NCBI RefSeq assembly: GCF_032884065.1
Contig: NC_088883.1
Span: 25,539,637-25,603,636 of the forward strand
Reading direction: 5' to 3'
DNA from: Artemia franciscana
Lineage: Eukaryota; Arthropoda; Branchiopoda; Anostraca; Artemiidae
Length of the DNA: 64,000 bases
Shown in pieces: positions 5,379 through 60,590 of the stretch. The notes below the pieces were generated by a model. The model saw only the letters and a program-made list of their open reading frames with translations, was not told the DNA's origin and made no database searches. Numbering within the stretch: the first letter of the stretch is position 1; every line of letters begins with the position of its first letter. A program made the translations under genes and the position numbers.

Positions 5379-5744
5379 ACTGTGTATATTCTATTCCCAT
5401 CTGAGCTGTAGTGAGAAATCATTAAAACACTCTTCTTTCAATTCCCAAGCTGAAGTTTTTGAAGAGCTTAATGAGCTGTCCCTGAGAATCGAGGAGAATC
5501 GACTGTGTATATTCTATTCCCATCTAAGCTGTAGTGAGAAATCATTAAAACACTCTTCTTTCAATTCCCAAGCTGAAGTTTTTGAAGAGCTTAATGAGCT
5601 GTCCCTGAGAATCGAGGAGAATCGACTGTGTATATTCTATTCCCATCTAAGCTGTAGTGAGAAATCATTAAAACACTCTTCTTTCAATTCCCAAGCTGAA
5701 GTTTTTGAAGAGCTTAATGAGCTGTCCCTGAGAATCGAGGAGAT
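5379..5744 (+). repeat. 123-bp tandem repeat, three near-identical copies
   Basis: Copies start at 5379, 5502 and 5625, with one or two base differences. The third breaks off at about 5744. The period is exactly 41 codons and one forward frame has no stop, so an open frame without ATG runs from about 5380 through all three copies to a TAA at about 5879. It begins 70 bp after the SMYD5 donor. No splice acceptor was identified, so coding use is unproven. Confidence 0.85.
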
Positions 5745-5879
5745 AATTTCGCACTTCTTGAGAAATTTTAGAAAAGGAGATAAAGCTCAGTATATTAATG
5801 TAATTGGGATATATTGTCATTCAATCTGCTATTGTGGACAAGCACGTACGGAAGAATCTTTTTGGGGGGAGGGATAATA

Positions 5880-7925: not shown

Positions 7926-8600
7926 AAACACACAATTTGTTACAGACATACTGCTCTAACTTGCATCAAAAAGAAATCATAATAATTAAATCATAATAAT
8001 TAAATATAATTAAATAGTTAAAATTATTCATAATCATGTAATTCATTAAATATGATAATTAAACAATTCATCGTTTCCAATAGTTTCAGACGAAGATTTT
8101 CGATACCCTTATCTTTGACTTTTCAACTTTGTCTTACAGGATGATCTGATCTCTCTTGAAACATGGGGAAATTTACCCATTTTGGCACGTCGTGTTTTTC
8201 AACCATAAAAAAAAAACTCTAAAGCAAATTTTTAAAATGCACTTTAGGTAAATGGCTGAATCTGAATCTCGACTATCGAATGATATCAAAATTGTTGTGT
8301 TAAGTCGAAACATCAAGACCGTATGACTATAGAAAAGTAACATACAGAACTTGCGGAGGGAACATCTTAAGTATTTTAGCAAATTCAAATGCGGTATGCT
8401 ATTTACAGTATTTGGCCAGTACAGTATATTACTATTAAATATATCTCAGTGTAACGACTTCTAATAAAATATTTATATTTCTCACATTTTTTGAATTATC
8501 AAAGAATCAGTAGGGTTATTTTGGGGGGTGGATGTGTTAATGCAAAGATCACAAAAAATCTACTGAAGTTTCGACGTAATACCTTAAATTGCATATATTT
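7926..8600. other. intron, no gene recognised
   Basis: AT-rich DNA with short TAATTAAA repeats at its left edge (about 7975-8060). Small frames on both strands match nothing recognisable. Confidence 0.45.
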
Positions 8601-9410
8601 GTTTTTTCTAAGGCCACACTGCCTTTTTATGACGAACAAATAGAAGTTCAAATGGGGATAAGTCGATTTGTTAGATATTTGGACCAAATGATCCGTGATC
8701 GTCATCAGTGATCGATCGCTGTATATGTGGTCGAAACTACACTGTCTAATAAATGGCGACATAGACATTGACATGCCCATTTGAACATTTATTTGTTAAT
8801 CCACCGAATTAAAAGTTTCTTTTAATTTCCAAAGGTCATAAACGTTTTACGATTAAAACTTAACGCTAATTATTCAGAAGAAATCGGGTACTACAAGCCC
8901 TGTGTCCGTGGCTTCAAGACGATACGCAATTTAGTCTTCAAGAAAAATAAACAACCAACGCTATTTAATAATTCCCTAACAAAATCATAAAGTCAATAAT
9001 AAAGGCATTGTTTTTTCTAAGAACACAATGCCTTTTTATGACGAACAAATAGAAGTTGAAATGAGGACAAGTCGATTTATTAGATATTTGGACCAAATGA
9101 TCCGTGATCGTCATCAGTGATCGATCGCTGTATATGTGGTCGAAACTACACTGTCTAATAAATGGCGACATAGACATTGACATGCCCATTTGAACATTTA
9201 TTTGTTAATCCACCGAATTAAAAGTTTCTTTTAATTTCCAAAGGTCATAAACGTTTTACGATTAAAACTTAACGCTAATTATTCAGAAGAAATCGGGTAC
9301 TACAAGCCCTGTGTCCGTGGCTTCAAGACGATACGCAATTTAGTCTTCAAGAAAAATGAACAACCAACGCTATTTAATAATTCCCTAACAAAATCATAAA
9401 GTCAATAAAA
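8601..9410. repeat. tandem duplication of a fold-back element with a hammerhead-like arm
   Basis: Two copies (8601-9009 and 9010-9410, period 409) match closely over their whole length. Each starts with a CACACTGCC...ATGACGA end, then TTCAAATGGGGATAAG, and carries an imperfect reverse complement of it (GCCCATTTGAACATTTATTTG) about 170 bp later. Between the arms the plus strand holds a stem GATCGC / GTGGTC around a TGTATAT loop followed by GAAA (8714-8736 and 9123-9145). It belongs to the family also seen at 15803-16360, 41464-41643 and 55350-55915. Confidence 0.75.
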
Positions 9411-9454
9411 AGCCAAATATAGATACGTTATTCACGAAGACATGGTAGATACGT

Positions 9455-11009
9455 TATTCACGTGATGGTAAGACAGTAAACCTTATTGATTATGTTATAG
9501 TAAACTGAAGACTGGCAGTATCAATACAAGATACTAGGGTATATAGGAGTGCTGTTATCGATGTTAAAAGTAAATATCATCATATAGTAGTGTCTAGGGT
9601 TAATTTAAAGCTGAAATTTTTGAAGGATAACTACCTCCTGGGAAGCTATGATGTGGGTAGACTCCAGGATGAGAATTTGAGAGAAACTTTCCAGGAAAAG
9701 TTGAATAATGAAATTGAGAATTTAAAATTTGACAGTGTCGAAGATGATTAGAATAATCTTAGAAAAACAATTTGTGTAGTTGCTGATGATGTCTTAGGGA
9801 AGAATGTTAGGACTGCAGCTAGGAATTTTAGCGAAAAAGCTTTATGTTTAATAGAGAGGAAAAAGGGCTTGTACAGGAATTATCTGAGTGATAGATCATA
9901 TGAAAACAAAAGGAATGTAAAGAAAGTGTAGAAAGCATTAAAATATGAACTAAGGATGTGAAAAGTGGAGGCCATGGATAAAATTGCCCATAATCTGGGA
10001 GATGCAGCTAGACGGCATAATAGTAAAATATTATACTGGCATGCTAGTAAATCGAGAGGGAGTTGTCAGTCCGGACTTGTCATAGTTAAGGAGAGGAACG
10101 GGGCCACAATTAATGATAAGGAATGAGTTATGGAAAAACGGGTAGAATATTTTGAGAATGTGCTAAACCGAGATAGAGTTGCAGGAAAAGATATAGAGGA
10201 AAATGAAAAAATTTGTGATACCTTGGATGTGAAGGAAGATTTGTTTTATGAGTTTCTTAAATATGTTGGCTCTGAGATTAGAAATAAGTTACTGGAGATT
10301 ATGAATATGATTTTAGAAAAAGGAGAAGTACCTAACGATTTTAGGAAAGCCTTAATTAAACCAATGTATAAGAAAGGGGATAAGAGTGAGTGTGGTAATT
10401 ATTGAAGCATTAGTTTGGTCTATTTAGGTAGCAAATCATTCGGTAATATGTTAGTTTTTAGACTGAGAGATGCTGTAAACAAAGTTTTAAGAGAAGAACA
10501 ATACGGTTTTACAAAAGGTAGAGGATGTGTCGACCAAATTTTCACTCTTAGGTTAATAATTGAGAAGTGCCTGAGTTGTCAAACACCTTTGGTCCTCAGT
10601 CTTATAGATTATGAGCAAGCGTTCGATTCTGTTGATAGAAGAGCTCTAGCAAAGGTCTTATCCTTGTATGGTCTACTAGACAAATACATTATACTGATTA
10701 GTGCTATGTACGAGAATGACACTGCTGCGGTTAAGGTAGAAAATGAGATTAGCAGCTTGTTTTGTAGTAAATCAGGAGTTAAGAATGGTTTTTGTTCTAT
10801 CCTTCTTTATATGGATCATTTTGATGGATTTTGTCTTAAGGAGTATTGGAATGGCAATGGGAGATCGCGGAATTAAATGGGGAGGAAATACTCTCTTTGA
10901 CTTAGATTATGCTGATGATTTAAGCATCCTTGATGAAAGTGTGAATACAATGAATGAACTTGTTGAGGTTTTGTGAGTTCAGGGTTCTAGAATAGGTTTG
11001 AAAATTAAT
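9455..11009 (+). mobile_element. RTE-like LINE, 5' portion (interrupted)
   Basis: From about 9455 the plus strand reads as the end of an endonuclease domain (LIDYVIVN), then a connecting region and RT. RT signs are KALIKPMYKKGDKSE, EEQYGFTKGRGCVDQIF, SLIDYEQAFDSVDRR (motif A) and LDYADDLSIL (YADD intact, about 10900). Several in-frame stops, for example near 9750, 9930 and 10403, and a frameshift near 10800 make it inactive. The frame breaks off at GLKIN (about 11009) and resumes with KKTKSLRLG at about 13910, so one element was split by an insertion. Related RTE pieces are at 19471, 22936, 31535 and 54765. Confidence 0.8.
10130..10976 (+). pseudogene. RTE-type reverse transcriptase remnant
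   Basis: These frames cover most of the RT fingers and palm. Motif A reads SLIDYEQAFDSVDR, the motif before it reads GFTKGRGCVDQIF, and the catalytic box reads YADD within LDYADDLSIL. The frame is closed once by a stop at about 10403, where related elements read a tryptophan or arginine, and shifts after VKSGVKNG in motif B near 10790. As part of a LINE the protein would copy its own RNA at nicked chromosomal DNA. The stops and the split element mean this copy cannot. Confidence 0.75.
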
Positions 11010-15224: not shown

Positions 15225-15802
15225 CGGCAGATTCATTGGCTTGCAGAATTGAATTTTGACTGCTCTTTCTTGGGATTGAATTTTGATTACCTTGACATTA
15301 CGGTTAACTTGTTGTTTGGTTAACTACTGTTGTACGGTTACTTGTAATTCTTCATGAAAATTTTACACAAGTTTGTGTGCCCAAAAGGCTGTGACTGTGA
15401 ATGTATAGCTATGATAACGTTGTTTAGATCAAATTTTGAATACTTTTATTTGAAGTCTTTTTACTAGAAAAAACATTCTCTTTAGTTATTAATTACAGTA
15501 TTAATTAAGTGCTAAAAATTAGGTGTAGTATTAATTAGGTGCAAGAATTAGTCTAAAAATCGAAGGCCTGCGCATATCTCTATAATGAAGTAGATGAAAA
15601 TGTTCTTGACTCTTTCAAAGACAAGTTATTTATTTAATGCTTAGAAATAGTAGACATTGTTGAGTTAGGTACTTGTTCTCCCAAATCCTGCGAACATATA
15701 GGCTAGCCGAATATCGCTGTATCAACTTCGCCAAAAATATGCATTTGCGCTTCCAGTAATAATACTGCAGTTATGAAAAGATTCATTTTCAATAATTTCG
15801 TT
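14606..15802. other. intron with a 59-base poly-T tract
   Basis: No gene. A homopolymer of about 59 T residues occupies 15164-15222. The surrounding frames are artefacts of it (poly-phenylalanine). The rest is AT-rich. Confidence 0.6.
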
Positions 15803-16360
15803 GACCACACTGCCTTTCCATGACGATAAATAAAAGTTCAAATAGGGATAAATCCTTTTATTAGACACAAAAAATGTTGAATACTCCGGTTACATGTACA
15901 GTGACCGTCATCAATTTTGCATGTTTTTCATGGGTGTTTATATATTTATAAACTGTTTTGGTGAAATTATCCCCGTAAATATGACAGAGATAATTTTGAA
16001 GACAACACTGCCTTTCCGTGACGATAAATAAAAGTTCAAATAGGGATATATCCTTTTATTAGACACAAAAAATATTGGATATATCGGTTACATGTACAGT
16101 GACCGTCATCAATTTTGCAGGTTTCCTATGGGTGTTTATATATTTATAAACTGTTTTGGTTAAATTCTCCTCGTCAATATGACGTAGATAATTTCGAAGA
16201 CAACACTGCCTTTCCATGACGATAAATACAAGTTTGAATGAAATAAATCCTTTTATTAGACAGTGATAATTCACAAAAAGTACTGGATATCTCGATAATT
16301 TTTGTGAATTATCAGTCTAATGAAAAGATTTATCCCCATTTGAACTTTTCTTTATCTTCA
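15803..16360. repeat. three-unit tandem array of the fold-back family
   Basis: Units start at 15803, 16001 and 16198 (period about 198), each beginning with a CACTGCCTTTCC-ATGACGATAAATA end followed by TTCAAATAGGGATA. In the first two units the minus strand carries TGATGA, a stem GGTCAC / GTAACC and a TGTACAT loop (15913-15888 and about 16111-16086), matching in layout the hammerhead-like motif of the 55.4-kb element. The GAAA box is changed to GGAG or GATA. The third unit ends in a palindrome (about 16256-16320) and an inverted end near 16330-16360. Confidence 0.75.
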
Positions 16361-40918: not shown

Positions 40919-41463
40919 ACTCAACGAAAATTGTGATTATTCCAAGATCCTAAATTCTTATTTGGGTCTGTTACAACAAAGAAAACAGATATAAAAATAC
41001 ATTCTAATAAGAAAATATCACCGAAATATTTTTGAGTACATAAGAATCAACAATACTTACGTGTCTTTTTTATTAATTAACCTCGAGACAAGTATGTAAT
41101 TTATTTGCCTTCAACTCCAACCAAGCAGTATGAACATATATTTGCTATTGGGCCCATTAAGGCCTAGCGGAAGTCCAAGCATCTTACTCCCTAGTCAATT
41201 CTTTTTCAGAGGCGGCAACTCGGTCAAAGACAAAGTCATCAGTTTTCTTCGTCGCTTCAACTAAATAAACATGAGAAGGTTGAGCTCAAGGGGTTTCTCA
41301 CTCAAAATTACGATTAGGCTCAGGTTATCCTTAGCAATTCTTCTTGTAATTATTTATACAATATAATTTTTAATATATATTTATTAACCGGCAGTTTGAT
41401 GTCTGCACGCTGCCTATTCCCCAGACTCTGTATAAACCGGTTACAACTAGCTAATACTTCACG
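40919..41463 (+). other. SMYD5 3' UTR region with candidate poly(A) signal
   Basis: Non-coding sequence after the stop codon. An AATAAA hexamer lies at 41264-41269, about 345 bp after the stop, and is the best visible polyadenylation signal. Earlier A-rich words (about 41000) are not canonical. The transcript end is inferred only. Confidence 0.35.
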
Positions 41464-41643
41464 AAAGTAAAACAGTTCAAAATAGGGATGAAACATTTTT
41501 ATTGACAGTGAACAAATATAAAATTTCTGAATAAATATATAATGAACTATATCTGTTCATTCTATATAATGAACAGAATAAATTTTATATCTGTTCACTG
41601 TCAATAAAAAGGTTTCATCCCTATTTTGAACTGTTTTACTTTT
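41464..41643. repeat. 180-bp near-perfect palindrome, fold-back family ends
   Basis: The left arm starts aaagtaaaacagttcaaaat and includes gggatgaaacatttttattg and acagtgaac. The right arm is its reverse complement with few changes, ending at 41643. An inner palindrome around tgttcatt lies at the centre. To the right, tgtcatggaaaggcagtgg (41644-41662) is the inverted end seen in the families at 8601 and 15803, so this is a short deleted member. It lies just before the hAT element. Confidence 0.8.
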
Positions 41644-41815
41644 GTCATGGAAAGGCAGTGGTCTTCGATGTTATCTAATACTTAACTGAATCGCTAAAGA
41701 ACAATCCGAGTGGTTAGTCCCTTGGTCTAATTTATCCATTTTTACGCGCTCCGATTACAACTACATCTAGTCTTTTGAGGGGAATTTTTGACTTCGGAAC
41801 ACAAATATGTAAAGT

Positions 41816-42362: not shown

Positions 42363-42670
42363 GTAAATAACTCCTATTTGCTGCCTATTTGTATTTATGT
42401 CATGTGTCTTTTTTCTTTAGTGTCATACTTAGCCTTATTCCATCAATTAATGGGCCACTCCATCACTCCAGGGACTGATGGCCCATTGGTAAATGTCAAC
42501 TTTCGTTCCAAGTGCTCTAAAGTGTGTATTACTGCATATAGCAAGATTCTCATTTTGTTTCTTTGTCATTATTACAGAAGCGCATCCATTTTTTTGCTTT
42601 CTAAAATCCCCCTCCAACAAAACTAAAAATACGTAAAGTAGGCTTGTGGTAAATTTATGGCAGTTCATAT

Positions 42671-42926
42671 AGGGTAAGATGACCAGTACTGGGACACTTA
42701 AATCACTTTGCCTATTCTGGGAGAGAATCTTTGGTTGGATTGCAACATGTCCAATACTGGGACAAAAGACAACAGGTTTTTTGGAAGCAACCCAGAAAAA
42801 TGTATACATTGGGTGTCCAAGATTAATTCTTTTGTCCCAGTATTGGACATGTTGTAATCCAATCAAAGCTTCTGTCCCAGAATAGGCAGAGTGATCAAAG
42901 TGTCCCAGTACCAGTTGTCTTACCCT
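42671..42926. mobile_element. MITE with ~100-bp terminal inverted repeats
   Basis: The left end agggtaagatgaccagtact is matched at the right by its reverse complement (cttaccct, with ccagtaccag inside). The arms extend for about 100 bp, including ggacatgttg/caacatgtcc and ctgggacaaaag/cttttgtcccag words. No ORF is present. A related stretch at 43067-43126 has the same flanking words cagttcat and gacttaccaataaa without the element, which looks like a pre-insertion version of the target. Confidence 0.8.
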
Positions 42927-43189
42927 CACTGACTTACCAATAAAGTGAACATACCACTCTATGCCTTTTTTATGCTCTTTACGAATATAATAATTGCTTC
43001 TACCATAAATTCAAACTGAAGCACTTTTTGAGCTCTTAAAAATGACAAATTTTCAAAAAAAATATGACAGTTCATGTAAATGACTTACCAATAAAATGAA
43101 CATACCACTCGATGCCTTTTTTGTGGCACTTGTTAACCAAGTGACATATAGCAATTGCAAAGTTGGTCAGTCTATCTGTCTGTCGGTCC

Positions 43190-45830: not shown

Positions 45831-45940
45831 TCTGAATAACTGAATTTGCAGGAATGAATTTGACACAATACCACCGCATTGGGTCCCGCTAGAATTCACC
45901 AGACCTGTCGTTCTTGCTCTATAGAATCTTTTATTTTCAG

Positions 45941-47917
45941 GCTGGTCATCCCACCGCATACACTGAGTTTATAGCTACAAATTCAAGAAAATCAGGGAAG
46001 CGAAAACAAAATGAAATTCGGGAAAATGTATCTGATGAAACTGAAAATGAAACTGTAAAAGGGGAATTCTTTGGAAAGAAGCTAAGATCCACGAAAGAAC
46101 AAGCTAACCAGTTGATCATGGACTATGTTGTGACAGATATGCGACCATTAAGCACTGTGAATAGTGAAGCTTTCAAAAGCATGATTTTAGGCCTCAATCC
46201 GTATGTTGGCCCAATAATGTCTAGAGAGACGTTAGCAAAAAAGATCGACCAATCGCTGTTCGATACAAAGAAAAGAATTACTGAGATTTTGGAGAAAACC
46301 GATTACGTCACAATGACTTGCGATATCTGGTCTAGCAGCAACCGGAGTTTCATGGGTGTTACTGCTCATGTCTTAGATGGTAACAATCGTTTTTTGCCAA
46401 TGATTCTTGCTGTTAGAAGATTTAAAGGTTCACATACGTTTGACAGAATAACTGAAATGATCTTCAGCATTTTTCGAGAGTACGGTTTGGACACCAATTT
46501 AGAAAAAGTGAGAGCTATTGTGACGGACAATGCATCAAATTTTGTAAAAGCATTCAAACAAAATGCAAAGCTTACCATTGAGCCACAGATTGAAGAAGGT
46601 GACTCGGATACAGACATTGATTTTCAAGAGGGAGAGCCAGATAATATCGAGACAACTGATTTGCACGAAATTTTTGATACTTATGGACGTGTTGGTTTAG
46701 TGTCACCATCAGTCAACATAAGTGAATCTGCTACCACAACTTTTTCTCTTGTATGTGAAGATAGTGGCAGTGTGAATCACGCTTTAGCTTCTGACAATAA
46801 ACCAGGAACGGAAACTTTGAGTGACAACAGTGACCATGTTCATAAGTTTCCAGGTGAAGGGTCTGAGTACGAGCTGGAGATGTATTTGCCACAACATTTT
46901 CGCTGTTGCAGCCACACGCTGAACCTGTTGGCAACAACTGATGCAAAGCACGCCTTAGAAAAAGACCTTAACTTCAGGAGAGCACTGTTAAACGTCAGAG
47001 CAAAGTGTCAGTCAGTGTGGAATTCATTAAGCCACAGCTCAAAGAATAACGATCTTGTCATGGATGTTTTTGAGAAAAAGTTGATACGCCCTAATGCTAC
47101 AAGATGGAACTCTGAATATGATGCACTGAAAAGAATTCTTGAATGCCAACAAGCTGGAAAACTGACCACGGTTTGCGACGTACTAAAGAAACCAAGATTT
47201 AAGCAAAATGAGATAGACTTTCTAATCGAATATGTCTCTGTACTGGAACCTATAGCAATAGCCCTTGACATGCTCCAGGTAGAAGACAAAGCTTTTTTCG
47301 GGATAATTTTCCCTACTGTTCGGTCACTGGAAAGAAAGCTGCAAAAGCTCCAGCTATCTGTCAAGTATACAAAGGCACTGGTTGGGACCCTGTTAGAAGG
47401 ACTTAAGCAAAGGTTTCCATTCCTCTGTGGACCTCCATCTCTTTATGCTGACTACCACCTGGCCACCAGTTCTCATCCCTATTTTAAAGATAAATTTGTA
47501 AGAGATGAAGACAAGGAGACTGTTGTGAGAATGCTTGTGAACGAGGCAAAGGCATTAGGAAGTAAACAGAGTACCAGCGAAGACATAGTTGGATCTGAGT
47601 TACTGAGATCTCCACAGAATTTCTTTGAAATGTCTGACGAAGAGGAAGCCACCATTCAGTCGGATGAAATGAAAACAACAAGAGTCGAAGTTTTGCACTA
47701 TCTAAGCGACTCTAGAAAAGATCTGTCAGTTTTGAGACACTATCCTATGGTAGAGTTGGTTTTCTGGAAGTTCAACTGCGTAAAGCCTGCATCAGTGCCA
47801 TTGGAGCGTCTTTTTTCGAAGGGAGGAGTGATTCTCTGTCCAAGGCGTAGCTCCTTGGCAGATCACAGGTTCGAAAGCCTGGTTCTTCTCAAAGCTAATA
47901 GGAGCCTAAAAATTTGA
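45941..47917 (+). CDS. hAT transposase exon 2 (catalytic and dimerisation domains)
   Basis: This exon starts at the acceptor (45940) in phase 0 with exon 1 and gives 658 further residues, about 711 in total. The transposase excises and inserts the element in the nucleus. Candidate catalytic acids are Asp in TCDIWSS (46322-46324), Asp in VTDNASNF (46526-46528) and Glu in RWNSEYDALKRILE (47141-47143), each in the context typical of the hAT RNase-H fold. An insertion domain with an FRCCSHTLNLL motif lies between. The C-terminus has the hAT dimerisation motif (SVPLERLFSKGGVI, RRSSLADHRFESLVLL). No stop or frameshift was found, so it may be functional. In-frame sequence just upstream of 45941 is intron. 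Confidence 0.9.
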   Translation, partial: AGHPTAYTEFIATNSRKSGKRKQNEIRENVSDETENETVKGEFFGKKLRSTKEQANQLIMDYVVTDMRPLSTVNSEAFKSMILGLNPYVGPIMSRETLAKKIDQSLFDTKKRITEILEKTDYVTMTCDIWSSSNRSFMGVTAHVLDGNNRFLPMILAVRRFKGSHTFDRITEMIFSIFREYGLDTNLEKVRAIVTDNASNFVKAFKQNAKLTIEPQIEEGDSDTDIDFQEGEPDNIETTDLHEIFDTYGRVGLVSPSVNISESATTTFSLVCEDSGSVNHALASDNKPGTETLSDNSDHVHKFPGEGSEYELEMYLPQHFRCCSHTLNLLATTDAKHALEKDLNFRRALLNVRAKCQSVWNSLSHSSKNNDLVMDVFEKKLIRPNATRWNSEYDALKRILECQQAGKLTTVCDVLKKPRFKQNEIDFLIEYVSVLEPIAIALDMLQVEDKAFFGIIFPTVRSLERKLQKLQLSVKYTKALVGTLLEGLKQRFPFLCGPPSLYADYHLATSSHPYFKDKFVRDEDKETVVRMLVNEAKALGSKQSTSEDIVGSELLRSPQNFFEMSDEEEATIQSDEMKTTRVEVLHYLSDSRKDLSVLRHYPMVELVFWKFNCVKPASVPLERLFSKGGVILCPRRSSLADHRFESLVLLKANRSLKI

Positions 47918-55110: not shown

Positions 55111-55349
55111 AATATTTACAATTTCTTTAAATGAAACAATTATTTATGTTTAATACAAAAAACAAAAAGCAAACTGTAAAACGCGAGCAGTCATAAATTC
55201 CTTGTCAAAGAAGGAATTTTTGAATTTTATTTTTGTGCTTCTAATTTCCTGTTCTCTAGCTGACGTCGGGTCAACATTGCTTTTACCTGGCAACTTTTCC
55301 GAATATTTTCGGCATAATACCTTCAATTAGGTATTTTTTTTCCCAAGAC

Positions 55350-55762
55350 CACACTGCCTTTCTATGACGAATAAATAAACGTTCAAATGGGGATAAGTCC
55401 ATTTATTTAGACAGTGAGAAATGGTACGATATAAATTTCGATCACATATACAGCGATCATCATCAGCAGAAATACTAAAGTATTAAAATGTAAACTAACA
55501 TATTTATTCAGAACAAAATAATTACTTCCGGTTCATTCACTAGATTTGTCTGAGAGAGTTCAATAACTGGATTCATCCAAAGTCTTGAATTATAAATTTC
55601 TTCTTTGATATTGCCTAAATGTAAATTGAATTTCTAATGAAGGGTGCAAAAGCTTCTTCTTCTTCTCTAATTGCAAAAGAATTTTTTTTTTAATTTATAG
55701 TTATATACTTGATTTGCATGGGGAGATGTAACCATCAGTAGTATTTCTACTGATGACGCTCG

Positions 55763-55840
<78 letters not shown>

Positions 55841-55915
55841 ATATCTTGACTTTTTCACCTTCACTCTTTAAATAAATGGACTTATCCCCATTTGAACGTT
55901 TATTTGTTCCTGAAT
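55350..55915. mobile_element. fold-back element with hammerhead-like motif in both arms
   Basis: The left end (acactgcctttctatgacga, then ataaacgttcaaatggggat, then gtccatttatttagacagtg) is matched at the right by ctctttaaataaatggactt, atccccatttgaacgtttat and ttgtt, an inverted arrangement. At the inner end of the left arm, the minus strand has CTGATGA (55466-55460), stem GATCGC / GTGATC (55458-55453, 55445-55440) around TGTATAT, then GAAA (55439-55436). The right arm has CTGATGA (55750-55756), GCTCGC (55758-55763), an (AT)n of about 70 bp, then GAAA (55837-55840). No protein is encoded. Penelope-like elements are a known home of hammerhead motifs, but kinship is unproven. Confidence 0.7.
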
Positions 55916-56020
55916 ATTACATACGCATCATAGAAGGGCGTAGATATTTTTCCAGAATTACCACTAGGGAATTTATTTTTGCCTCTTAAGACTACGAAAC
56001 TTTTTTCCAAAATTAATTAC

Positions 56021-56209: not shown

Positions 56210-57127
56210 CTGAAAAAGAATTGTGTAAAGTAGTAATTCTGGCAATAGCTGTAGTTGTCGGCAGGGCAAGTCACCTTCTTATTTATAAGGTGGAGTTAAG
56301 ATTTGGGATTAAATAATAAGATATGGAATAAACATCTCGGATTTTATATTTTTTGCCAGAAGAAAGATCATAGAAGATCACGTTTATTTGTTCTTTTTTA
56401 TAGGGGTGAACGTATCGAACCAAGAAAATAGGAAGAAGGCTCATTCGAGTTCTCTTTATCTTTGTATGTGTGCTCTTGAAACACCAGAAGAAAAAATATT
56501 CGTCAATCTCTTAAATGTTTCATGTAAGATACAAGCTGTACTGCTAAAAAATTTAATACTAGATTATTAACATTTCAACGTGAGAAGAGAATTCTAGTCT
56601 CACAGTGCTTGTGATAGAGTTGTGATAGAATATTAATTATCTTTACCTTTATTGTCGTTACATGTGTGCTTTCGAAACATCAGAAAAAAAAAAACAATGC
56701 CCGTTAGTCTATCTTAAATACTTCGTGAAAGATACTACTATTATTATATGTTGCCCACCCACACAATACAATAGCATAATACGAGGAGTAATACATAAAA
56801 AAGGGGAGAAAAAGCAAACATAGAAGAAGGAAAGAAAAAGAAACACTCACAACTGAAAGAATCTAATAAGGCGGTAATGTGGAGAAACACGAATGCAAGC
56901 TGTGCTTCAGAGCTCTTTGTGCAGTACTTCAAGTTTAACTGTAATATCAGGAACTGGAAATTTTCTAACAAGAGCCTTATTTTGTCCAAGGCAGAAGAAA
57001 AAACGAGAATTTTTAAAATCGAACATCTAATCGAGATTATTTTCCAATTTTTATCAGCTGAAAACAATTTATGACGAAACTGGCAAGGATCTATTTTCAG
57101 TAGCAAAATAATATTGAAGTAACTCAC
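56210..57127. other. CCT7 intron, no gene
   Basis: AT-rich. Frames on both strands here are not supported by motifs. Confidence 0.55.
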
Positions 57128-57279
57128 CAGCAACAATAGCGTCATTCTTCATAGCTCTCCGTACAATCATAATGGCATCATGAAGAGATCTTTCGGTTTC
57201 ATCCATAAATTGTTCGGCGCCTCCTCTCAAAACCACAGTACATGTTTTAGCATGGGGACAACCAGTGAAGAAGTTGAAC
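57128..57279 (-). CDS. CCT7: CCT7, exon of the apical/intermediate domain
   Basis: On the minus strand the acceptor TTTATTAG ends at 57280 and the donor GTGAGT starts at 57127. The 152-bp exon completes an Arg codon and ends in phase 1. It encodes [40 protein letters not shown] and [11 protein letters not shown], matching [40 protein letters not shown] and RAIKNDSVVAG of vertebrate CCT7. The LRGG and ERSLHDA segments are the chaperonin intermediate-domain signature; the Asp of SLHDA is the residue equivalent to the catalytic Asp required for ATP hydrolysis, and it is kept. Confidence 0.95.
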
Positions 57280-57373
57280 CTAATAAAATATTTTGTGATA
57301 ATGCAAAATTCAACAAAACAAAAAGATGGAGATGAAACGCATTCCTGAAACAACTTCAACTTAAAATAACCTA

Positions 57374-57950
57374 ATGAAAGAGAGGAAAACGGATCAAGGT
57401 TACATTTTCCGAACAGATTTTGTTCACGTTGTCCCTGTCCAAAAGGCAGATGGTGGTCCCACTGGAGTAGGATCGTATCGTCTAATTAGCCATCTATCCT
57501 GCAAAGGAAAAGTTTATAAAAGTGTCACAAATAAGTCATTTTTATCATTGCTTTCAGTCATATCGGTTCTTGGTTGAATCAAACTTAGTTGTCATAGATG
57601 TCAATCTACTTGGTTGAGCTCCAGCCTCAGGGACACGGCATTCGTTTTATCTCTTTGGACATAGTAAAAGCTTTTGATATTGTGTGTCATGACTGCCTTT
57701 TATGTAAAATAAAAGCGAATAGTGTTGATGGTCGGCTATTTGAGGTACCCGTGAACTTTCTTTGTCAACGATCATCACGAGTTGTTCCTGGTGGTTATGT
57801 TTCAAAATAGCATCCAGTGTTATTAGGAGTACCCCAAGGATGTCTGCTTGGACCAACTCTTCCTAGTGTCAATAAATGACCTCGGGGATAAACTTGTGAT
57901 AAAACCACTTTGCTGATAATACGACAATGATCCCGTCATGCATCAGACCA
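57374..57950 (+). pseudogene. LINE reverse transcriptase remnant
   Basis: Plus-strand pieces read [20 protein letters not shown], then ISLDIVKAFDIVCHD (RT motif A) and GVPQGCLLGPT (motif B), with frameshifts between. This fits a Jockey/CR1-like RT fragment. It lies in the CCT7 intron and lacks a YADD box and any ends, so it is a decayed internal fragment. The following 57950-58290 has weakly protein-like frames but no motif. Confidence 0.6.
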
Positions 57951-58840: not shown

Positions 58841-60590
58841 TTAAATAAAAAAAACAAGTTTTTTTTTTTAACTGCAAGTAAGGAGCGACATTAAAACTTA
58901 AAACGAAAAGAAATTATTCCGTATATGAAAGGGGTTCTCCCCTCCACAACGCCCCGCTCTTTACGCTAAAGTTTGACTCTTTGTCACAACTCTATTTTTT
59001 AGAACAATAAAGAACTTTAGCGTAAATAAGGAGCGACATTAAAACTTAAAACGAAAAGAAATTATTCCGTATATGAAAGGGGTTCTCCCCTCCACAACGC
59101 CCCGCTCTTTACGCTAAAGTTTGACTCTTTGTCACAACTCTATTTTTTAAAACAATAAAGAACTTTAGCGTAAAGAGCGAGGCGTTGAGGAGGGGACAAC
59201 CTCTTTCATATACGGAATAATTTCTGTTCGTTTTAATGTCGCTCCTTACTTGCAGTTAAAAAGATTGTTTTTTTTTATTTAATTTCTGAACGTCTTTAAA
59301 TTAATGCATCTTTTAATTTTGTCTCACCGCACATGAATAATTAGAACCAAATTTTGCATATTAGATTTTTTTGTCTAAATGGCTTTCTCATATTTTTTTT
59401 TAAGACAATTTTCTTAAAAATAGGGTTGGGGGAGGAGGCCTAGTTGCCCTCCAATTTTTGGTAACTTATAAAAGCAATTAGAACTTTTTAGTTTTTTTTT
59501 TAAGAACGTTCTTGTTAGTAATAAATATACATAAATTACAAATTAACTTACGTAACGAAATCCTACATTTGTATATTTTTATTACATATATGAGGGAGTT
59601 TGTCCCCTCGTGAATACCTCGCTCTTTACACTAAAGCTTAAATTTTGTCCCAATTGTTTAAGAATGACCCCAGAATCACAAAGGCCGTAGAATAAATAGC
59701 CGAAATTACTAAAAGTACTTTAGCGGAAAGAGCGAGGTATTTAGGAGGACATGAGCCCATCATATGCGTAATACTTTCTGTTCGTTTTAAGTTTTAATGC
59801 TGCTCCTTACTTTCAGTTGAAAAACTTGTTCATATTTATTTTTTCATTGTTTCTTTTTAAATAATTCTAGAAAATTGTGCGCCCCCTTCATGGAATTTCT
59901 CTTCTCCCATGAAAAATCCTTCAAGTAAAGATCCTTCAACGTAGCTCCCTTCCCTCAACCAAAAAAATCACCCTGAAAACGTCTGTACACTTCCCAATAA
60001 CCATTATTGTAAACACTGGTCAAAGTTTGTAACTTGCAGCCCCTCCCCTGGAAACTATGGGGGAGTAAGTCGTCCCCAAAGATATCTTATTATGTTTTTC
60101 GACTATGCTGAACAAAATGGCTATCTCAAAATTTAGATCCGTTGACTTTGGGAAAAAATGAGCGTGGGAGGAGGCCTAGGTGCCCTCCAATTTTTTTGTC
60201 ACTTAAAAAGGGCACTAGAACTTTTCATTTCCATTTGAATGAGCCCTCTCGCAACATCCTAGGACCATTGGGTCCTACGATACGATCACCCCTGGAAAAA
60301 ATAAATAAACACGCACCCAAGATCAGTCTTCTGGAAAAAAATACCCAGTTTCACATTTTTGCAGATAGGAGCTTGAAATTTCTACAGTGGGGTTTTCTGA
60401 TACGCGGAATGCAACGGTGTGATTTTCGTATCTTTTGATGGATAAGACTAAATTTAATGAAACTTATATATTTGAAATCAGCATTTTGTTGTATCTATTA
60501 GTATCAAAATTCCGTTTTTTAGACTTTGGTTTACTATTGAGCCGGGTCACTCCTTCCTACAGTTCGTGAGAACGAACTACTGGATAAAGT
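58841..60590 (+). mobile_element. fold-back family element(s) with terminal hairpin (copy 4)
   Basis: It starts ttaaataaaaaaaacaag, then arm gcaagtaaggagcgacatta with CTCTTTACGCTAAAG and its inverted partner (ctttagcgtaaagagcgagg, then cgctccttacttgcagtt), the whole fold-back spanning 58870-59257. One arm is itself duplicated (58883-58990 and 59024-59130). A second, more diverged fold-back (59577-59823) follows, then the family body and an end at gagccgggtcactccttcct with a hairpin CAGTTCGT..ACGAACT (about 60560-60577). Two nested or tandem copies are likely. No ORF is supported. Confidence 0.65.

Follow-up and report, generated by a model that had tools for sequence, protein, structure and literature searches.

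A short fold-back repeat of Artemia franciscana with a probable degraded minimal hammerhead and homology to Penelope-like pseudo-LTRs

Introduction

Cervera and de la Pena are said to have described, in 2014, minimal type I hammerheads in the pseudo-LTRs (pLTRs) of Penelope-like elements, and pairing as dimers has been proposed for hammerheads with a weak helix III. Passages of two reviews present Penelope hammerheads as usually lacking helix III (PMC6155905, PMC7761336), and in part of a third the ORF of an Anolis Penelope-like element reportedly starts at the beginning of stem II (PMC11167929). Metazoan retrozymes, as characterised in sections of PMC7229834, are head-to-tail non-coding repeats of 150-450 bp with a GC content below 50% and target-site duplications (TSDs) longer than 4 bp, and these sections argue for a retrozyme-Penelope partnership from shared features and co-occurrence.

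We analysed a 64,000-nt stretch of the A. franciscana genome (contig NC_088883.1; hereafter the window), in which a preliminary description had reported a hammerhead-like motif within fold-back elements. As far as the passages of PMC11167929, PMC7761336 and PMC6155905 allow a comparison, the repeat family and its relatives resemble the hammerheads of Penelope-like pLTRs in having CTGANGA, stem II, GAAA and no helix III, as well as tandem pLTRs, a frame starting in or at stem II, and a partner with reverse transcriptase (RT) and GIY-YIG in the same genome; unlike those hammerheads, the motif here also occurs in short non-coding repeats that are partly inverted duplicates carrying it on both strands. 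The short AT-rich non-coding repeats, head-to-tail arrays and TSDs longer than 4 bp are like those of the metazoan non-LTR retrozymes in the sections of PMC7229834, whereas the hammerhead here is minimal and without helix III, compared with the canonical form with loop-loop contacts expected of such retrozymes.

Results

The 55.4-kb copy and its relatives in the window

The features of the window that belong to the repeat are collected in Table 1. Re-reading of the minus strand at 55466-55436 gave CTGATGA-T-GATCGC-TGTATAT-GTGATC-GAAA, so the motif is present as described. The combination of CTGATGA, a stem of at least 5 bp and GAAA was matched twice in the window, at 55466 (minus) and 10912 (plus), and on average 0.02 times per dinucleotide shuffle (4 of 200 shuffles had a match); with the core relaxed to CTGANGA, the average was 0.06 (11 of 200). 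The surrounding region scored 86.1 bits (E 3.6e-15) with two broken stem I pairs against the family model R1, a score that is not independent, since R1 was built from 41 rows that include the 55.4-kb sequence. A second copy of the motif, inverted and located in the right arm, had been overlooked earlier; here a TA run substitutes for the loop and the 3' strand of the stem.

Table 1. Coordinates of the hammerhead repeat and related elements within the window
Feature	Position	Strand	Remark
Whole fold-back element, 602 nt, made up of left arm, spacer and inverted right arm	55308..55909	-	ends from family comparison
Left target-site duplication, CCGAATATT	55299..55307		8/9 identical to 55910-55918
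Right target-site duplication, CTGAATATT	55910..55918		pairs with 55299-55307
Inverted repeat (94%), left arm	55369..55417		blastn
Inverted repeat (94%), right arm	55861..55909		blastn
Core CTGATGA, stem II GATCGC/GTGATC, 7-nt loop, GAAA	55436..55466	-	sequence
Probable degraded minimal type I hammerhead region, left arm	55410..55490	-	family model R1
Inverted second motif copy, right arm: CTGATGA, (TA)n, GAAAATATC	55750..55845	+	sequence
Related 230-nt element	8568..8797	-	mostly inside 409-bp tandem duplication 8599-9007 / 9008-9415
Related head-to-tail trimer, units 198, 198 and ~169 nt, last unit fold-back	15792..16356	-	
Related 215-nt fold-back element without recognisable hammerhead	41460..41674	+	R1 19.9 bits, E 0.25

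The preliminary description had stated that stems I and III were not convincingly found at 55.4 kb. Stem I was absent in our pattern check as well, and in the 41-arm alignment described below this copy has a 5-nt gap where the family has the stem I sequence TAGA after GAAA; the unfound stem III is consistent with a hammerhead class that has no helix III. When the whole 55.4-kb element was folded, the inverted arm paired the entire core (CTGATGA pairing probability 1.00; stem II pairs 0.0), and its self-pairing exceeded chance with z -17, owing in part to the TA run.

The window contains one repeat family with 12 arms at four loci, and a profile built from these arms found no additional window arm above threshold. 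In the 8.6-kb element, the left arm retains CTGATGA with GAAA changed to CAAA, and the right arm retains stem II and GAAA with CTGATGA lost; in the first two units of the 15.8-kb trimer, the core is changed to TTGATGA and GGAG or GATA. The preliminary description had likewise noted an altered GAAA or CTGATGA in the 8.7- and 15.9-kb copies. Within the trimer, 16062-16130 scored 25.5 bits (E 0.017) against R1. Self-pairing of the 8.6-kb element was beyond chance (z -2.7), and that of a 198-nt unit at 15.8 kb was no better than chance (z -0.1). The element at 41460-41674 has kept a near-perfect hairpin (z -17) and a clean 9-bp target duplication, CTAATACTT (9/9 identical, 41451-41459 versus 41675-41683), despite having no recognisable hammerhead. 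A strict hammerhead descriptor had no match among the window copies, which, judged from their sequences, look dead.

An Rfam covariance-model search, the check proposed with the preliminary description, returned no hammerhead at the gathering score or at E values of 10 and below, whether in the window as a whole or in five sub-regions. Note that this silence says little here, because 20 relatives, including copies with an intact motif, were equally silent at E up to 10, and no known minimal hammerhead served as a control. The claim of compensatory base changes held. The sister stems at 15.9 and 8.7 kb have the sequences given for them and a double change exists, but the signal is weak on window data. 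Specifically, between the 55.4- and 15.9-kb stems one pair is changed on both sides and one is broken, random transitions yield at least one double-changed pair 33% of the time in this comparison, and the number of double-changed pairs in the window was reached by 358 of 500 shuffles, which is not beyond chance. On window-only data, with no Rfam match, no stem I and weak covariation, the hammerhead motif looks like chance.

Hammerhead anatomy across the genome

The window's own 1.27-Gb genome was searched with the 165-nt left arm, which gave at least 47 matches, window included; this copy number is a lower bound because 40 of 2225 first-look candidates were scored. We used 39 genome places besides the window and aligned 41 arms (40 genome arms and the 55.4-kb arm), near-identical duplicate loci being excluded from one family alignment and partly from another. 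The majority sequence of the 41 arms reads TCTA-CTGATGA-C-GATCGC-TGTATAT-GTGATC-GAAA-TA-TC-TAGA. GAAA is followed by TATC-TAGAC, in which TAGA pairs with the TCTA directly before CTGATGA as stem I. By its sequence, the family majority is thus a predicted minimal type I hammerhead that lacks helix III, consisting of stem I, CTGATGA, C, a 6-bp stem II, a 7-nt loop and GAAA-TA-TC. The extra C between A9 and stem II could pair with G12. Stem I adjoins C3 and H17 as TCTA/TAGA in the family and as TGTG/TACA in the Penelope-like copies presented below, and is lacking in the 55.4-kb copy. No convincing pattern of distal stem I pairs was found in the family copies.

A 44-base motif with at most 3 mismatches was found at 142 genome places, as compared with none for the reversed control. 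Among 77 model matches, some of which come from loci selected by the motif itself, the core was intact in 49, GAAA in 54 and UH in 66, at least 3 of 4 stem I pairs were present in 71, and at least 5 of 6 stem II pairs likewise in 71; core, GAAA, UH and both stems occurred together in 29. The strict descriptor found a complete minimal hammerhead in 6 of the 39 loci for which resemblance to the window copy was the sole ground of selection, and in 10 of the 20 chosen by motif pattern. These make 16 of 59 loci but 14 places, since two of the ten had been counted before. It had no match in 30 Mb of single-strand Markov sequence. In motif-intact copies, part of the core is paired in the free fold, which is more stable than the hammerhead fold by 2.7-8.9 kcal/mol. 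The hammerhead pattern had no match in viral contigs; one match among genome contigs, in Spirulina, was taken as chance, its surroundings being unlike the element by eye.

A Penelope-like partner in the same genome

GIY-YIG frames are abundant in this genome, where 1778 candidates yielded at least 150 scored matches. Five of these lie about 2.9 kb apart on one contig (C17), in a Penelope-like array with a GIY-YIG match every ~2.9 kb (G000:C17:23289952-23301559). The autonomous Penelope-like family may be young, because several genome frames near 890 aa have no stops. Locus L088, taken from this array, has an 889-aa frame with matches to RVT_1 (4.8e-12) and GIY-YIG (4.6e-8), and carries TGTG-CTGAAGA-C-GGCCCT-TGGACAT-AGGGCC-GAAA-TA-TC-TACA at 721 and 3623, that is, with a period of 2902 and in both pLTRs. 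This hammerhead anatomy is identical to that of the short repeat, and the stop-to-stop frame starts at 744, within the 3' strand of stem II. A second locus, L084, carries a third copy of the Penelope-like motif. A loose hammerhead descriptor found none in 7 of 9 scanned GIY-YIG loci, which are mostly 3.2-kb pieces possibly without a pLTR. An RT plus GIY-YIG frame with tandem pLTRs, present in L088, was not found in the 602-nt repeat, and the short hammerhead repeat is non-autonomous.

A 213-nt arm of the repeat is collinear with the pLTRs of both loci, with scores of 66 and 64 (L088) and 72 (L084) against shuffle maxima of 31, 31 and 38, respectively (300 simple shuffles each).

Covariation and predicted structure

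Covariation was found once the alignment was enlarged to family and Penelope-like rows. Eight hand-picked rows (6 family arms and 2 Penelope-like copies) had 96.3% of cells paired, as against at most 45% in slid versions, and 5 of 10 stem pairs, in 11 cells, were changed on both sides. Four of these five differ between the Penelope-like rows and the family, and the fifth is a within-family subfamily pair; in stem II, 3 of 6 pairs were scored as double-changed between GATCGC/GTGATC and GGCCCT/AGGGCC. None of 500 shuffles reached the cells paired, the double-changed cells or the covariation score, 7 reached the number of double-changed pairs, and 264 reached the pair types. RNAalifold predicted stems I and II unaided on these rows and added a seventh stem II pair from the extra C and G12. 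Covariation across the family and the Penelope-like copies is therefore strong.

Inside the family alone, covariation is modest and suggestive, and for the most part reflects a division into subfamilies. At pair 2.1-1.1, A-T predominates in one subfamily and G-C or G-T in the other (Fisher p 0.0015, uncorrected for relatedness and with the odd pairs GG and AA excluded). For the 77 model-fitted matches (75 distinct), none of 500 shuffles reached the percentage paired or the covariation score, 1 reached the double-changed cells and 266 the number of double-changed pairs. On 47 family arms, RNAalifold predicted four stem II pairs only, without stem I.

Repeat architecture and mobility signatures

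Measured from the core, 97 arm matches cross +60; 58 of these stop at +160-169 and 19 at +100-109, so that the arms fall into two end classes at about +103 and about +165. Terminal inverted repeats at both ends were not found, as arms end mostly at two different positions, and extension of the right arm into a full terminal inverted repeat reached p below 0.02 in none of 24 comparisons. A left arm and an inverted right arm lay within 800 bp of each other at 13 of 59 loci (two of them repeated places), with total lengths of 218-791. Model matches occurred on both strands at 12 of 39 loci; both DNA strands thus encode the motif in some copies, because it is present in the inverted duplicate. The 55.4-kb spacer is homologous to the spacers of L041, L044, L047 and L042, and to the arrays L068, L070 and L074.

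In L068, five same-direction arms stand 449-462 bp apart with an inverted arm at the end, and L070 and L074 are similar. The head-to-tail monomer of these arrays is ~455 bp; compared monomers are 73-85% identical, the motif being destroyed in several of them, and in L074 a step of 638 bp covers a unit in which no motif was found. The GC content was 0.29-0.32 in three monomers. Thus the retrozyme features of non-coding head-to-tail repeats, low GC and, in part of the elements, TSDs longer than 4 bp are present, the monomer length lying at or just above the upper end of the 150-450 bp range.

Target-site duplications were seen to some degree in 9 of 14 elements and were lacking in 5. They were 12/12 in L016 and L037, 9/9 in L047 and 8/8 in L041, and comprised 7 bases at 55.4 and 15.8 kb. 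For the 55.4-kb element the null fraction was 0.009 in the 12-base form and 0.05 in the 7-base form, and the 8.6-kb duplication falls within the control (null fraction 0.14). Over the 14 elements together, 0 of 20000 permutations reached the observed level. In a wide upstream search over 40 genome arms, L016 and L037 were clearly above control, L020 and two arms of L043 were marginal (p 0.03-0.05), and the rest were not above control.

Other features of the window

The CTGATGA..GAAA match at 10912-10938 (+) passes a loose full descriptor, of which shuffles average 0.58 matches; it is probably a chance match, because it involves codons of a Y-A-D-D box (recognised by eye) just downstream of a reverse-transcriptase frame. 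An inverted repeat at 42658-42939 has 112-nt arms that are 85% complementary and gives sub-threshold mir-3912 precursor scores on both strands (54 and 47 bits; cut-off 95). Pfam covered 17 of the 27 window frames of at least 110 aa. The 674-aa open frame at 45893-47917 (+) has no Pfam match at 0.001, and we take it to resemble a hAT-type transposase; the frame at 42195-42623 matches zf-BED, though below the cut-off of that family. At 5379-5747, three 123-bp tandem units, 96-99% identical, keep a single open frame made up of 41-aa repeats. A further fold-back with tandem units, at 58876-59236, consists of two direct copies of 148 bp (99%) and, after them, an inverted arm of 93% complementarity. 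Finally, the exon-like stretch at 57069-57482 (-) matches the TCP-1/cpn60 chaperonin family (6.7e-13) and probably represents a host gene or part of such a gene.

Discussion

The hammerhead repeat of A. franciscana is homologous to Penelope-like pLTRs, its structure is conserved, and it bears signatures of mobility. Descent from a hammerhead-bearing element, which the preliminary description had proposed, gains support for an element of Penelope type from the whole-genome stem I, the pLTR homology and the double-changed pairs. The 55.4-kb element is very probably an old, disabled copy of a non-autonomous repeat derived from a Penelope-like pLTR of the same genome, its motif being a hammerhead of the minimal type I class, without helix III and now degraded.

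Within the window, a chance match inside an unrelated palindromic repeat would be in keeping with the absence of stem I, covariation within chance, the silence of Rfam and the complete pairing of the core in the fold-back RNA. We nevertheless regard it as extremely improbable, given the 142 motif places against none for the reversed pattern, the strict-descriptor loci, the arm-pLTR homology, the covariation and the RNAalifold stems, and in our view the pairs that differ on both sides between the family and the Penelope-like copies refute it. A fold-back DNA transposon, Mutator- or Foldback-like and moved by a transposase, with arms that are merely hammerhead-like, is suggested by the fold-back arms and the ~9-bp target duplications in the window. 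The Foldback transposon Tetris, in the passages of PMC4079207 that describe it, has tandem repeats inside inverted arms and TSDs of 8-10 bp, and the present repeat is like it in its inverted arms and tandem units. Unlike Tetris as described there, however, the repeat has no matching terminal inverted repeats at its ends and does have a ribozyme motif and pLTR homology. The outer ends are not inverted copies (the arm stops mostly at +100-109 or +160-169), the right arm has no significant extension, the better TSDs range from 8 to 12 bp, and the arm has a homologue in a Penelope-like pLTR that carries the same ribozyme; we consider such a transposon very unlikely.

The repeat could also be a classical metazoan non-LTR retrozyme with a canonical hammerhead and no descent from Penelope pLTRs. 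The short, AT-rich, ~455-bp head-to-tail arrays with TSDs longer than 4 bp do match metazoan retrozymes in the sections of PMC7229834, but homology links the arm to an autonomous element's pLTR, and a minimal hammerhead without helix III is the Penelope type in the passages of PMC7761336 and PMC6155905, so that we give this origin very little credence. Descent from a Penelope-like pLTR is the reading we retain.

For this Penelope-derived repeat, the family sequence suggests how it may work. Transcripts of intact copies would cut themselves after TATC (TATC/TAGA), probably best as dimers joined through the self-complementary AUAU in the place of helix III. The unit-length RNA, perhaps circularised, might then be copied into new sites by a Penelope-like RT/endonuclease. 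In short fold-back forms, the inverted arm could lengthen stem I; it does so in L034 and L046, whose free fold nevertheless pairs part of the core and is stronger than the hammerhead fold by 7.4 and 4.3 kcal/mol, respectively. In long fold-back forms such as the 55.4-kb element, the inverted arm could instead bury the core in a long duplex, a trait that, going by the sections of PMC7229834, is like plant retrozymes and viroids and unlike most metazoan retrozymes. It is conceivable, if rather unlikely, that inverted pLTR duplication has produced a mobile element with a hammerhead on both DNA strands, whose RNA of either polarity would self-cut and whose two-arm RNA would hide the ribozyme in a duplex and so have a built-in means of switching between self-cleavage and the formation of circles or templates.

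Hammerheads of Penelope elements are already known; what varies here is the fold-back, both-strand form. We found no published description of a fold-back, both-strand hammerhead retroelement, judging by titles and abstract openings, and the terms 'inverted', 'polarit' and 'antisense' do not occur in the main text of PMC7229834. The case carries a warning, since neither an Rfam scan nor the window alone revealed the nature of the hammerhead motif. Here, a short ribozyme repeat is tied by sequence to an autonomous Penelope-like partner inside one genome. The inverted both-strand arrangement offers a testable link from retroelement ribozymes to the two-polarity logic of viroid-like RNAs, and self-cutting in both polarities, if true, would be as in viroids and delta-like agents.
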